Of a DNA stretch of 21,616 nucleotides, positions 17,580-21,616 are shown piece after piece (the stretch's first letter is position 1; the number at the start of each line of letters is the position of its first letter). The stretch lies in the IMG/VR virus record IMGVR_UViG_3300017760_000126, positions 1 to 21,616 of that record. One strand, given 5' to 3'. The notes beneath the pieces were generated by a model. It saw only the letters and a program-made list of their open reading frames with translations, was not told the origin of the DNA and searched no databases. This stretch comes from a virus. Both the position numbers and the translations under genes were made by a program.

Positions 17580-18476
17580 ATGGCAACACCAAATGGACAG
17601 ATAGGTTTATCAGACGTAAATGATGAATTAGGTGAAAGTTCAACGGCACAAATAAACATGGGTTCAACACCTGTGAGAAGTTTAGCAGGTCAACCTAGTG
17701 GTGCTGTTGCTATGTCAGACTTACAAAATAAAACAAACACTTACACATTCACATATCTAGTTGTTGCAGGCGGCGGAGGCGGCGGCGAAAACCAAGGTGC
17801 TGGAGGTGGTGCAGGTGGTATGAGAACAGGATCAATAGAAACGGCACCAGGTAGTAACTTCCCTGCTTCAATAGGTGGTGGCGGCGGACCAAACACAGGT
17901 TTTACAAATAGAGGTAATAATGGTTCAGCTTCATCATTCAACAGTATACCATCAACTGGTGGTGGTTCTGGTGGTGCAGAAAACTCCAGATCCGGTAATC
18001 CTGGTGGATCAGGCGGCGGTGGTAGTAATGGTACTGGTGGTGGTTCAGGTATTTCAGGACAAGGTAATAGTGGTAGTACAGGTCCCGGCGGCGGCGGCGG
18101 TGGTGCTGGAGGTGGTAAATCAAACTCTGCTTCAGGTACAAGTGGTGGTAACGGAGCATCTTTCCCAGGTGACGGTATCACTTATGCAGGCGGCGGCGGA
18201 GGTCACAGCCCTGGTAATGGTCCTGGTGGATCAGGCGGAGGTGGTCGAGGTCAACAACAACACCCAGAAAATGCATCAGCAGTGTCAGGTACTTCTAACA
18301 GAGGTGGTGGTGGCGGAGGCATGCGTCATTGGAATGGTGCTGCCGGTTCAGGTGGTTCTGGTAGAGTTGTTATTGCTTATCCAGGTACTGCTCCAAAAGG
18401 TTCAGGTGGTACACAATCTATTGTAGGTAGTAATAGAGTTCACAGTTTTAATAGTCCAGGAACATATACAAGTTAA
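17580..18476 (+). CDS. Gly-rich adhesin-like tail protein (298 aa)
   Basis: Residues 4-52 (NGQIGLSDVNDELGESSTAQ then VRSLAGQPSGAVAMSDLQNK) form an N-terminal module widespread in marine phage tail proteins. From about 58 (YTFTYLVVAGGGGGG) to about 260 the chain is dominated by Gly with Ser and Asn, like the glycine-rich tail domain families. It closes with GSGRVVIAYPGTAPKGSGG and HSFNSPGTYTS. Gly-rich stretches recall the polyglycine adhesin gp38 of T-even phages, which sits at the fibre tip, though no direct homology is claimed. The many GGC and GGT codons make a GC-rich island in AT-rich DNA, and long open frames on both strands here are only side effects. GAGGAGA at 17566-17572 is the ribosome site. 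Fibre-tip host recognition is an inference from content and position. Confidence 0.8.
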   Translation: MATPNGQIGLSDVNDELGESSTAQINMGSTPVRSLAGQPSGAVAMSDLQNKTNTYTFTYLVVAGGGGGGENQGAGGGAGGMRTGSIETAPGSNFPASIGGGGGPNTGFTNRGNNGSASSFNSIPSTGGGSGGAENSRSGNPGGSGGGGSNGTGGGSGISGQGNSGSTGPGGGGGGAGGGKSNSASGTSGGNGASFPGDGITYAGGGGGHSPGNGPGGSGGGGRGQQQHPENASAVSGTSNRGGGGGGMRHWNGAAGSGGSGRVVIAYPGTAPKGSGGTQSIVGSNRVHSFNSPGTYTS

Positions 18477-18489
18477 TTAAGGAGAAATA

Positions 18490-19053
18490 ATGGCACATTT
18501 TGCGGAATTAGATAGTAACAAAAAAGTTTTAAGAGTAAACGTAGTAGATGACAGTAATGTATCTGCTGATATGGCAGTTGACGGAGAAACTTGGTGTGCT
18601 AATAATATTTCTGAGGATCCTTCAATTGCATATGTAGATGGTGCTTATCCAGGTGTCGCATGGAAACAAACGTCATACAATCATAACTTTAGAAAAAGAT
18701 TTGCATGTATTGATGGTTATTTTATTGATGATGGTGGTAATGGATACTTTACAGCAATTAAACCACATTCTAATTGGGTATTAAGTTCAGTTGATGGTGC
18801 TTATTATGAACCAGTCGCACAACCAACTGTAACAACTTATGAAGATGGTGGTAAAACTTATGAGTATAATTTGAGTTGGGACCAAGACAATACAAGATGG
18901 ATATGTCAAAAACTTAGGGAAAGTTCTCATCACGGTGGGTGGATAAGAAGTGCATTAGGTTCAGACGCAGATACGCCAGAAGTAATTACTTCTCCAACAA
19001 CGGATCAAACAGTAGTAAGAATTTGGAACCCAGACGACAAAAGTTGGTCTTAA
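18490..19053 (+). CDS. Marine phage MAHFAEL-type protein (187 aa), unknown function
   Basis: The N-terminus MAHFAELDSNKKVLRVNVVD and the core WKQTSYNHNFRKRFACIDGY, then FTAIKPHSNWVLSS near 87-100, match a small protein family often found beside structural genes in marine phages; I know no proven function. Residues 113-187 (VTTYEDGGKTYEYNLSWDQD on to VVRIWNPDDKSWS) look like a second small beta domain. AAGGAGA at 18479-18485 is a strong ribosome site and only 13 bases separate it from the Gly-rich gene, so both probably belong to one late transcript. Its stop shares TTAA with the stop of the converging oxygenase gene. A tail-associated role is inferred from location. Confidence 0.8.
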   Translation: MAHFAELDSNKKVLRVNVVDDSNVSADMAVDGETWCANNISEDPSIAYVDGAYPGVAWKQTSYNHNFRKRFACIDGYFIDDGGNGYFTAIKPHSNWVLSSVDGAYYEPVAQPTVTTYEDGGKTYEYNLSWDQDNTRWICQKLRESSHHGGWIRSALGSDADTPEVITSPTTDQTVVRIWNPDDKSWS

Positions 19054-19676
19054 TCTAAATAATATTTAGCAATATGACCCGGTAAACCTAATACAGGTCT
19101 TCTATCAAATTTTAATTTTTTTGATTGAGGATCACTAGCGTCATTATAATGAAAGAATACTTGACCACAGATTTCGCCTTTAAATTCATCACGCCAATGT
19201 TCTAATTCACAACCACGATACATTAAACAATCACCTGGTTCTAAATCAACTTTAGTACCTGGATTATTTGTACCACCTGTATTATCAACATAGATAGACC
19301 AAGGTTCACCACCTAAAAACATTGTAGCAGATATTTGACATGATGGTCTGTCTTTATGTCTTCTAAGTATATCACCATGTTTATATAATCTTGCATAAGT
19401 ATATGTTTCAACAAGTTTATAGTCTATTTCTTTTTCTATAGTTTCTTTTTTTTCTGTAAGTATTGTGTCAAATAAAACATCACCATAATTTGCCCATGTA
19501 TTCTTTACAGTAAGGTCATTCATATAACCATAATCTTCACTAAACGGAGATATTTGTTTATTTTCATGTAAGATATTAAATACTCTCCTTTTGTTTAATA
19601 AGTAACGATATCCTAATTCTGCCATTTCAGGACTAATTAAATTTTTTATTACTTGATAGTGTTTTTCTCTAAACAT
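19050..19676 (-). CDS. 2-oxoglutarate/Fe(II)-dependent oxygenase-like protein (208 aa), oxygenase 5
   Basis: A prolyl-hydroxylase-like double-stranded beta-helix is indicated by YARLYKHGDILRRHKDRPSC, where HxD is H107-K108-D109, then ISATMFLGGEPWSIYVD and LEPGDCLMYRGCELEHWRDE with the distal iron ligand H160, and GQVFFHYND. Such enzymes use Fe(II), O2 and 2-oxoglutarate to hydroxylate proteins, nucleic acids or small molecules; the substrate here is unknown. The reading frame extends to a TTG at 19697, but I choose ATG at 19676: it follows AAAGG and sits one base after the previous stop (TAATATG). It is last in the oxygenase operon, and its stop overlaps the stop of the converging gene. Confidence 0.82.
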   Translation of the reverse strand: MFREKHYQVIKNLISPEMAELGYRYLLNKRRVFNILHENKQISPFSEDYGYMNDLTVKNTWANYGDVLFDTILTEKKETIEKEIDYKLVETYTYARLYKHGDILRRHKDRPSCQISATMFLGGEPWSIYVDNTGGTNNPGTKVDLEPGDCLMYRGCELEHWRDEFKGEICGQVFFHYNDASDPQSKKLKFDRRPVLGLPGHIAKYYLD

Positions 19677-19685
19677 ATTACCTTT
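19674..19685 (-). promoter_or_regulatory. Ribosome site and stop-start junction that decides the oxygenase 5 start
   Basis: On the minus strand AAAGG (19685-19681) is followed by TAA (stop of the upstream gene), one T, then ATG at 19676. The same TAATATG junction occurs at 6563-6569 and 6783-6789. This favours ATG at 19676 over the upstream TTG. Confidence 0.7.
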
Positions 19686-20151
19686 CTCTATAGACAAAAA
19701 ACGTCAAAGTCATTCTTGCATTTGTTATATTATCACCAAACGTATAATCTGGTGAATGTGTAATTTTTGAATTATATGCTACTAATTTATTGTATTTGTT
19801 TTCAATAATAGTTTGTATATTTTCTTTATTATATAGTATTGTACCAGAATTAGGTTTAGGATTAGGTGTAAGATATATTACACCTGCCCAATCAGATTTA
19901 TCTGTATGTTTACTATATTTATCTTTAGTAATTATATCGCTTGTTTGATATGAAAAATACATTTCTACTTTAGCACGTTCTAAATTAAGTACCCCTAATA
20001 TATCATTTGCAATAGTGTGATAATATTCTTCTGGTACATCTGCTCTAAACCCTCTATAAAAAGTGTTGTGTTCATTTGTTCTATATGTTGAGTTAAGTGC
20101 AACTTGCCTTACATCATTAACATTTTTTAAAAAGTTATTTTTGATCCACAT
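19678..20151 (-). CDS. 2-oxoglutarate/Fe(II) oxygenase-like protein, DUF6445-like (157 aa), oxygenase 4
   Basis: The core reads SKHTDKSDWAGVIYLTPNPK, with HxD at H82-T83-D84, then NSGTILYNKE, and NKLVAYNSKITHSPDYTFGD with the distal H132 and R146 as a likely 2-oxoglutarate-binding Arg (NARMTLTFFV). The order H-D, YLTP, GT-hydrophobic, distal H, R fits compact phage and marine bacterial oxygenase families of the DUF6445 kind; the substrate is not known. It starts with ATG after TAGAGA, inside the end of the preceding gene (17-base overlap), and its stop is one base before the next ATG, so translation is coupled on both sides. All metal ligands are present, so activity is plausible. Confidence 0.78.
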   Translation of the reverse strand: MWIKNNFLKNVNDVRQVALNSTYRTNEHNTFYRGFRADVPEEYYHTIANDILGVLNLERAKVEMYFSYQTSDIITKDKYSKHTDKSDWAGVIYLTPNPKPNSGTILYNKENIQTIIENKYNKLVAYNSKITHSPDYTFGDNITNARMTLTFFVYRER

Positions 20152-20710
20152 AATCTCTAAAAGAAATCCAACCTGTTATAATATATTTTTCTTGTGTTAA
20201 TGATGGTACACCTTTATGAGTATGAGTCCAACTTGCTGGCCAAATAAGTGTAAGACCTTTACGAGGTTGTATAATTCTTTTTTGATAAAAAAATTCAGTT
20301 TCACCTTCATCTGTTACATCATTTAAATAAGTCATAAAGACTAAGTGTCTTTTTGCCATTGTTAAATCATTTGGATTATTAACATCTCTTTGCCAAGTAT
20401 TTTCATAGTGCCAAATTTTAAAACCACCACCTGGTGGGTAATATTGTATGTTTGGACATTCTAAAACATCATAATAATATTGGTCTTTGTCCGAAAATAT
20501 ATAAGTTTGTTTATATTTTTCAATACATACATTTAAATAATCATAATAATAAGGTATATCTTTGCCAGCAACATCTATACTATCTTTAGTGTCTTTATCA
20601 ATCATATCATAACCAGAAAGACCTTGTTTTTTCTTTCCGTTTTTGTGATGTTCAATAAGTCTATCACAAATACTATCGTCTATCTTATATTCACCTATAA
20701 ACGTTGTCAT
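20135..20710 (-). CDS. 2-oxoglutarate/Fe(II) oxygenase-like protein with HxE motif (191 aa), oxygenase 3
   Basis: Residues 87-103 read NIQYYPPGGGFKIWHYE, placing H101-Y102-E103 where HxD is usual. RHLVFMTYLNDVTDEGETEF (121-140) and PRKGLTLIWPASWTHTHKG follow, with H163 or H165 as distal ligand, then EKYIITGWISF in which K175 may take the place of the usual 2-oxoglutarate Arg. This pattern is familiar from oxygenase-like proteins of marine T4-like phages. Glu in place of Asp can still bind iron in this superfamily, but activity is unproven. The start ATG shares ATGA with the upstream stop (20707-20710). Fold assignment is firm; the reaction and substrate are unknown. Confidence 0.8.
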   Translation of the reverse strand: MTTFIGEYKIDDSICDRLIEHHKNGKKKQGLSGYDMIDKDTKDSIDVAGKDIPYYYDYLNVCIEKYKQTYIFSDKDQYYYDVLECPNIQYYPPGGGFKIWHYENTWQRDVNNPNDLTMAKRHLVFMTYLNDVTDEGETEFFYQKRIIQPRKGLTLIWPASWTHTHKGVPSLTQEKYIITGWISFRDYVDQK

Positions 20711-21273
20711 ACAATATTAAAATCCTTTAAATCAGTAACTACAAAATTACCAGCAACACTATATCTTTCATTATTAGTTTTCATAACTTTATGAGGTAAA
20801 CTAGATTTAAATATTAGTAGTGTACCTCTTTCTACTGGCATGTCAAAACTTTTCATATTAAATATATTATATTTATCATACTTTGGGTCAAACAATTCTT
20901 CTTGCCCAAATGATTGAAACTGACAACTCATACCTTTATCTAAGTATAATACAAAACTATACGTTGAGTTTTTATGATAGTGTACTTCGCCTTGTTGACC
21001 AGGTAAAAATTTAGTTCCCCACATTCTAGTCATTTTGATAGGTGTTTGAAAGAACATTACATTATCATTAAATGCTTTTACTTGATGTTCTATATCTCTA
21101 GTTAAATCAGGTAGTCTATCCCATATCATATCATCTACAGATTGAAAACCATCAGGTTCTATTTGTTTATATTCTAAATCTTTTATTATCTGTATATCAC
21201 TTTCGTGTATAGAAATTTTAGTAAATGCAAGAGGTTTAGCAAAAAGTGGTTGTATTTTTATTTCATCAAGCAT
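20707..21273 (-). CDS. 2-oxoglutarate/Fe(II) oxygenase-like protein, 2OG-FeII_Oxy_5-like (188 aa), oxygenase 2
   Basis: The core MTRMWGTKFLPGQQGEVHYH then KNSTYSFVLYLDKG, followed by GTLLIFKSSLPHKVMKTNNE and RYSVAGNFVV, matches the layout of the Oxy_5 group: HxHxNS, a hydrophobic strand, distal H161, R170. The near-side ligands are H98-Y-H100-K-N102, so the usual HxD Asp is missing and Asn or a second His occupies the area. That is common for this group, but it leaves metal binding uncertain. It starts with ATG at 21273, 28 bases after the stop of the upstream oxygenase, with only a weak AAGAGA ribosome site. Its stop overlaps the next ATG by four bases (ATGA). Substrate unknown. Confidence 0.78.
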   Translation of the reverse strand: MLDEIKIQPLFAKPLAFTKISIHESDIQIIKDLEYKQIEPDGFQSVDDMIWDRLPDLTRDIEHQVKAFNDNVMFFQTPIKMTRMWGTKFLPGQQGEVHYHKNSTYSFVLYLDKGMSCQFQSFGQEELFDPKYDKYNIFNMKSFDMPVERGTLLIFKSSLPHKVMKTNNERYSVAGNFVVTDLKDFNIV

Positions 21274-21301
21274 GACTAATCTCTTATTTTACCGTAAAAA
21301 A

Positions 21302-21616
21302 TCATTTATATGGGTATCCTAAATTCCACATTACTAAACTATTTCTTGTACCAGATGTAACAGTTGTAACTCTATGAGTAACAAAAGACGGAAAGATACA
21401 TATAGACCCTTTTGGTTTTATTTCATTACAAGTAAACTCACCATGTGGTGTTCTAAACTGTAAATCACCACCCTCATATTCGTGTGGGTGATTTAGTTGT
21501 ATTGTACATGATAATTTTCTTATCTTACCTTCATGTTGAGGGTGTCCGTTGTTATAAGGTTCAGCTTGTTGGTCAGCATGCCAATTATAATATTGATTTA
21601 ATTTGTACCTTGTAAA
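21302..21616 (-). CDS. PKHD-type 2-oxoglutarate/Fe(II) oxygenase, C-terminal half (5' end outside window), oxygenase 1
   Basis: The minus frame is open from the window edge for 104 residues. It begins FTRYKLNQYYNWHADQQAEP, with HxD at H13-A14-D15 of this fragment, then RKLSCTIQLNHPHEYEGGDL, IKPKGSICIFPSFVTHRVTT with distal H81, and SGTRNSLVMWNLG with R91 as 2-oxoglutarate ligand. This order is that of PKHD-type (PiuC/YbiX-like) hydroxylases, here with every catalytic residue in place. Roughly the N-terminal half is missing. The stop TGA is followed by 28 bases before the next oxygenase, so it may be the first gene of the array or one in a longer series. Confidence 0.85.
   Translation of the reverse strand, partial: FTRYKLNQYYNWHADQQAEPYNNGHPQHEGKIRKLSCTIQLNHPHEYEGGDLQFRTPHGEFTCNEIKPKGSICIFPSFVTHRVTTVTSGTRNSLVMWNLGYPYK

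Follow-up and report, generated by a model that had tools for sequence, protein, structure and literature searches.

Why a marine phage should carry a run of unlike oxygenase genes beside its tail genes is a question raised by IMG/VR virus record IMGVR_UViG_3300017760_000126. The whole stretch analysed (positions 1 to 21,616, a 21.6 kb record; the window below) has the gene content of a T4-like phage of Pelagibacter, close to HTVC008M. Its plus strand runs from the end of gp8 through a VrlC-like giant protein, four tail-fibre genes, a Gly-rich protein and a protein here called F, after which five minus-strand genes, A to E, with the fold of 2-oxoglutarate (2OG)/Fe(II) oxygenases occupy 19050-21616; F and A are convergent and their stop codons overlap. 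In marine phages, few genes of unexplained role are as frequent as those for such oxygenases, which are mostly classed with host metabolism. We propose tentatively, as a reading that falls only a little short of an even call, that A to E are protein hydroxylases which modify the adjacent tail and adhesin proteins.

Five unlike oxygenase-fold genes in one block

Profile and structure searches placed all five proteins in the superfamily, C, D and E through Pfam, B through Pfam together with its predicted fold and A through its predicted fold only. E and C matched 2OG-FeII_Oxy_3 (4.5e-14 and 3.6e-9) and D matched Oxy_5 (2.4e-9), all above cut-off, with a further match of D to TIGR02466 (2.4e-8) under the model cut-off, and B matched DUF6445 (8.3e-8, above cut-off) and Oxy_3 (0.0076). 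No Pfam match was obtained for A. AlphaFold models of A and B were built on alignments of environmental homologues and run with Foldseek against the PDB; the model of A (predicted local distance difference test, pLDDT, 89) gave Pseudomonas putida prolyl-4-hydroxylase 4iw3 as best match (E 3.3e-9) followed by PHD-type enzymes, and that of B (pLDDT 93) gave PasI, OGFOD1, PPHD, PHD2, PiuC and a mimivirus lysyl hydroxylase. Profiles of A and B searched against PDB sequences found no oxygenase, so their relation to the oxygenases is visible by fold comparison only.

The ligand positions are highly conserved within each family. In A the HxD motif (residues 114 and 116), H167, R169 and Q179 are invariant among 160 sequences, as is R103, and a Gln stands where the Arg or Lys for the 2OG carboxylate is usual after the distal His. 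B has H82, D84 and H132 in 85 and R146 in all of 86 sequences, while D shows an invariant HxH...H with H98, H100, H161 and R170 in 34/34. In C, H101 and H165 are found in 100/100, E103 in 91 (Asp in 9) and K175 in 94 (Arg in 6), this Lys lying ten residues past the distal His as it does in collagen prolyl 4-hydroxylase, and in E the counts are H111 162/162, D113 161/162, H179 161/162 and R189 160/162.

When A to E were compared with each other no BLAST match was found at E<0.01, which argues against one duplicated gene; the motifs differ as well. A preliminary description of the array had thus rightly claimed five unlike members in five distinct families, but its PKHD-type label does not hold for A, and it is E that comes closest to the PKHD/YbiX models. 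E matched NCBIfam models of PRK05467 type (PKHD YbiX/PiuC) at 6e-17 to 3e-8, all below the curated cut-off, and by its sequence is a relative, not a member, of these hydroxylases.

The complete genes are tightly packed, as the same description had noted from overlaps and an ATGA junction: C and B overlap by 17 nt, D and C have a common ATGA, and a single base separates the B stop codon TAA from the ATG of A, with a gap of 28 bp between D and E. This start of A, at 19676 and preceded by AGAAAGG, is likely the true one and agrees with gp068 of HTVC008M, although the listed open reading frame (19050-19697) begins with TTG. No terminators were found in a search around the array, and promoter matches were uninformative in the AT-rich DNA. 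The five genes would presumably be expressed as one transcript and made as a translationally coupled unit. In all five the non-synonymous rate (dN) is lower than the synonymous rate (dS).

The limits of the array could be seen in a close relative, contig L007, which is 99.8% identical to the window over 2875 bp. There E is complete (L007:2931-3539, 202 aa) and is followed by homologues of gp13, gp14 and gp15 on the other strand, so the array here consists of exactly five genes and the earlier suggestion of a possible continuation beyond the window edge fails for this relative. An oxygenase-like gene of gp076 type lies beyond the gp13-gp15 homologues.

Between E and D the window holds the sequence ATGATTTTTTACGGTAAAATAAGAGATTAG, which encodes MIFYGKIRD*. 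At this position an intact sixth oxygenase is present in contig L090 and in HTVC008M (gp071), both starting MIFYGKIKEH, and the comparison indicates that it was lost from the lineage of the window by a clean deletion. B is missing in HTVC008M, gp067 is missing in the window, and related contigs carry other combinations of oxygenases at the same position, the composition varying widely. Over short evolutionary time the members are, from these comparisons, individually dispensable. Since they are gained and lost one at a time, an obligatory chain of steps is disfavoured, and the successive-step pathway proposed at the outset is ruled out as leading reading; alternative substrates, the other option then offered, or parallel ones fit single-gene gain and loss better.

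Features of the array and its neighbours (window coordinates).
Feature	Position	Strand	Basis or remark
Gly-rich putative tail adhesin, 298 aa	17580..18476	+	phrog_2295 5.7e-46; cassette partner
F, phrog_7759 protein (MAHFAEL...)	18490..19053	+	phrog_7759 9.2e-28
A, 2OG/Fe(II) oxygenase-fold protein, phrog_2954	19050..19676	-	AlphaFold and Foldseek, invariant HxD...H
B, DUF6445-type 2OG/Fe(II) oxygenase	19678..20151	-	Pfam, AlphaFold/Foldseek
C, prolyl-4-hydroxylase-like oxygenase, HxE triad, Lys at H+10	20135..20710	-	Pfam Oxy_3
D, 2OG-FeII_Oxy_5 / TIGR02466-type, HxH for HxD	20707..21273	-	Pfam Oxy_5
10-codon stub	21276..21305	-	apparent scar of deleted sixth oxygenase (gp071 orthologue)
E, Oxy_3 / PKHD-YbiX-like oxygenase	21302..21616, open at window edge	-	Pfam Oxy_3

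A recurring cassette with a Gly-rich protein and F

The ordered block recurs in HTVC008M and related contigs, so that the adjacency is not peculiar to one contig and, by this comparison, not a chance arrangement. Together with its neighbours it forms a cassette that is found in myophages and podophages of Pelagibacter and in cyanophages; besides the Gly-rich putative adhesin and F it comprises oxygenase E, further members and oxygenase A. In these phages the Gly-rich protein adjoins the array or is one or two genes away from it, in most cases together with F. Homologues of the Gly-rich protein, which in the identical or near-identical copy of contig L087 reaches 51% Gly within 80 aa, lie near oxygenase arrays in HTVC008M, HTVC023P, HTVC033P, Mosig, S-SM1, S-RSM4 and S-CAM8. 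Gly-rich protein and F stand directly beside the array in HTVC008M, HTVC033P, S-SM1 and S-RSM4, with one extra gene in between in HTVC023P, Mosig and S-CAM8, and F-like proteins adjoin arrays in Pelagibacter phages and cyanophages alike. Array and tail genes stay close together even where, as in the window, they occupy opposite strands.

Using A to E as queries, a collection biased to close relatives, 157 distinct A loci were obtained, of which 133 have at least three oxygenases in a run and 149 have one-strand runs. E lies 5' of A in 141/144 loci, and 293 of 416 junctions overlap or abut. The Gly-rich protein is found within 5 kb of A in 76% of cases and F in 71%. Because queries with A to E would be circular here, a reverse search was made with F alone; 55 of the 80 loci so obtained had an oxygenase no more than 5 kb away, and the density of oxygenases was 0.312/kb within 3 kb of F versus 0.065/kb at 3-10 kb. 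When the count was limited to contigs of 10 kb or more, 14 of the 23 independent F loci had an oxygenase no further than 2.5 kb away versus 7.8 expected from random placement (P 0.0005), a value obtained with F central in clipped loci and edge effects not fully corrected. With short contigs and a limit of 1.5 kb, a permutation gave a weak excess (21 vs 15.8, P about 0.025), since the Gly-rich gene is often placed between F and E. Many other phages have a lone D-type oxygenase 0-4 bp from F.

What the enzymes may act on

If A to E are protein hydroxylases, their targets would be side chains in the proteins with which the phage recognises its host, namely the Gly-rich protein with its presumed adhesin role, F or the neighbouring tail fibres. 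Every enzyme would oxidise a particular type of residue or a particular site, for the most part without depending on the rest. The adhesin could be made more stable in this way, sites for glycosylation could arise, or the surface that binds the receptor could be varied. Support for protein substrates comes from the prolyl-hydroxylase-like folds of A and B, whose matches include the protein hydroxylases PPHD (acting on EF-Tu), PHD2 and OGFOD1, and from the Lys of C placed as in collagen prolyl 4-hydroxylase. Tail proteins are hinted at by these folds and by two neighbourhoods. Homologues of B lie between GT11 fucosyltransferase and GT25 glycosyltransferase genes in S-SSM7 and Sf-FS3 (L250:4983-5504, L251:4740-5246), a placement that suggests hydroxylation followed by glycosylation. 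In HTVC008M, gp079 (L003:33764-35158; 'PrnA', 'Tryptophan halogenase'), not far from the array, adjoins a further oxygenase, gp078, and gave weak matches to QhpG, LodB and GoxB, which are flavoenzyme maturases acting on protein Trp, so that its substrate could be a protein.

With somewhat less assurance we would widen the proposal: marine phages of unrelated morphotypes may share a mobile cassette of several unlike 2OG oxygenases that post-translationally hydroxylates receptor-binding tail proteins, the phage 'ferrochelatase' family being one of its enzymes. If true, this would be a dedicated virion-modification system common to such phages. That the arrays are so regularly situated near the Gly-rich adhesin speaks for modification of the virion, a proposal that can be tested in cultured phages such as HTVC008M.

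Several results weigh against tail-protein hydroxylation. No oxygenase occurs within 5 kb in 25 of the 80 F loci, the placement test carries the edge effects mentioned, and A lies far from tail genes in P-SSM7 (among replication genes) and S-RIM32 (beyond a helicase). With Gln for the strand-VIII Arg/Lys in A and HxH in D, these two could be unusual or inactive 2OG enzymes. The Gly-rich regions show no excess of Pro-Gly (0.86 of the shuffled value), and collagen-like Pro-Gly targets there were rejected for this reason. Small-molecule enzymes are also among the Foldseek matches of A and B, and AlkB structures among those of A.

The most probable of the alternatives is a hot spot of recombination at the boundary of tail-fibre and neck genes, which would collect accessory oxygenases acting elsewhere and bring them near the adhesin by cassette shuffling. 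We regard this as unlikely but serious: composition varies, members come and go, prnA, heme oxygenase and PcyA are found in the same region of some phages, and multigene transfer from myo- to podophages is reported for another gene set (PMC9599517). The strongly conserved order of E and A argues against it, as does the finding that F alone predicts oxygenases, including the lone D-type gene.

In the oxygenase superfamily 2OG turnover is substrate-coupled, which speaks against an auxiliary role whereby the enzymes consume 2OG or oxidise small molecules and so steer host nitrogen or energy metabolism. Such a role, put forward for cyanophages from gene content (PMC3037559; repeated in PMC9602691) and in line with the small-molecule matches above, needs neither five to nine unlike enzymes nor proximity to tail genes, and we consider it improbable. 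DNA or RNA modification or AlkB-like repair, an interpretation given to Syn9 oxygenase genes beside uvsX/uvsY (PMC2984593) and hinted at by the AlkB matches of A, appears less probable still; A to E sit in the tail/neck block and have no TET/JBP or AlkB Pfam match. About as remote, or slightly more so, is modification of the host surface or of glycans for superinfection exclusion or receptor change, which the two glycosyltransferase settings of B homologues would suit, whereas the window array has no glycan genes and its link is to tail proteins.

The name of A has to be weighed as well. A matches phrog_2954 (3e-50), called ferrochelatase in PHROGs and in the HTVC008M annotation, and the pelagiphage 'ferrochelatase' is described as always adjoined by a 2OG oxygenase (PMC9599517) and phrog_2954 as enriched, together with oxygenases, in seasonal phages (PMC11561400). 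That A is a genuine ferrochelatase working with the oxygenases via iron or heme is thus favoured by the database label and both papers. It had no ferrochelatase family match in Pfam or NCBIfam at E<=1, its profile met no ferrochelatase chain among PDB sequences, the 50 Foldseek matches listed included no ferrochelatase and, where they had names, were 2OG/Fe(II) oxygenases, and HxD...H, invariant in 160/160, contradicts the label, so that we find this hardly credible. Since neither profile nor fold gave a ferrochelatase signal, the name of phrog_2954 is very likely wrong, the predicted fold being prolyl-hydroxylase-like. The published 'viral ferrochelatase' (PMC11561400, PMC9599517) would be corrected by this re-assignment, and the reported partnership with a 2OG oxygenase would become that of two members of one oxygenase array.

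Named arrays and their annotation

Mixed arrays and the multiplicity of 2OG oxygenases are already documented in marine phages, HTVC008M and cyanophages included (PMC3037559, PMC9602691, PMC9599517), and fold similarity to EGLN3 is on record (PMC12774648). The re-assignment of phrog_2954 looks new, as does the sharing, across lineages, of a cassette that includes the Gly-rich adhesin and F; neither was found in the open-access literature searched, nor was anything relevant met there on a link of oxygenases to Gly-rich or tail proteins.

The closest named array is gp067-gp072 of HTVC008M (NC_020484), which has the same position, strand and neighbours and is annotated as four 2OG oxygenases and one 'ferrochelatase'. 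The stretch 17580-21616 is 76% identical to HTVC008M in nucleotides with 84% aligned, and the orthologues of A, C, D and E are 68, 58, 82 and 70% identical over the shared part, but HTVC008M lacks B and has gp071 and gp067. The latter (L003:26403-26825) and HTVC023P gp64 (L005:12549-13052) resemble oxygenase relatives without the iron ligands, possibly pseudoenzymes. Podophages of the HTVC023P/HTVC033P type carry the Gly-rich protein, F, E, an H23_66-type gene and A as in the window cassette, though as a shorter, co-directional set in an unrelated morphotype.

The cyanophages S-SM1 (SSM1_051-061), S-RSM4 (132-142) and S-CAM8 have 6-9 mixed oxygenases that adjoin tail genes and a Gly-rich protein; the array of S-RSM4 reaches gp13. 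In S-SM1 and S-RSM4 the C- and E-type members lie toward the adhesin end and the A-type last. The cyanophage arrays differ from that of the window in being co-directional with the tail genes, in having more members and in holding an internal 4Fe-4S protein, phrog_33749; this conserved protein (L330:10317-11018, L331:3941-4642) is a possible electron donor. S-SCSM1 (PMC9602691) likewise has many unlike 2OG oxygenases, 24 genes in all, but by their numbering these are spread over the genome and were discussed in terms of host metabolism, with no adhesin link. PPHD/PHD-type prolyl hydroxylases have the fold predicted for A and B at an identity of only 11-18%, and with the usual Arg/Lys that is replaced in A.

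Several members of the cyanophage arrays are labelled DNA endonuclease, denV or ferrochelatase. SSM1_053, a 'DNA endonuclease', matched Oxy_3 (4.7e-10), and SSM1_054, a 'denV', had no Pfam match at E<=1, DNA glycosylase or endonuclease included, and matched the oxygenase-like Mo58 profile at 1e-47. Genes of phrog_274 ('denV'/endonuclease V) and phrog_2297 ('DNA endonuclease') in S-SM1 (L330:8249-8737, L330:7722-8246) and S-RSM4 (L331:6219-6698) resemble 2OG oxygenases. A 2010 review describes cyanophages as without denV (PMC2984593), and the denV reported in them may be a mislabel. Likewise, phrog_1644, the family matched by B, is named 'minor coat protein', which clashes with the predicted fold and the residues of B.

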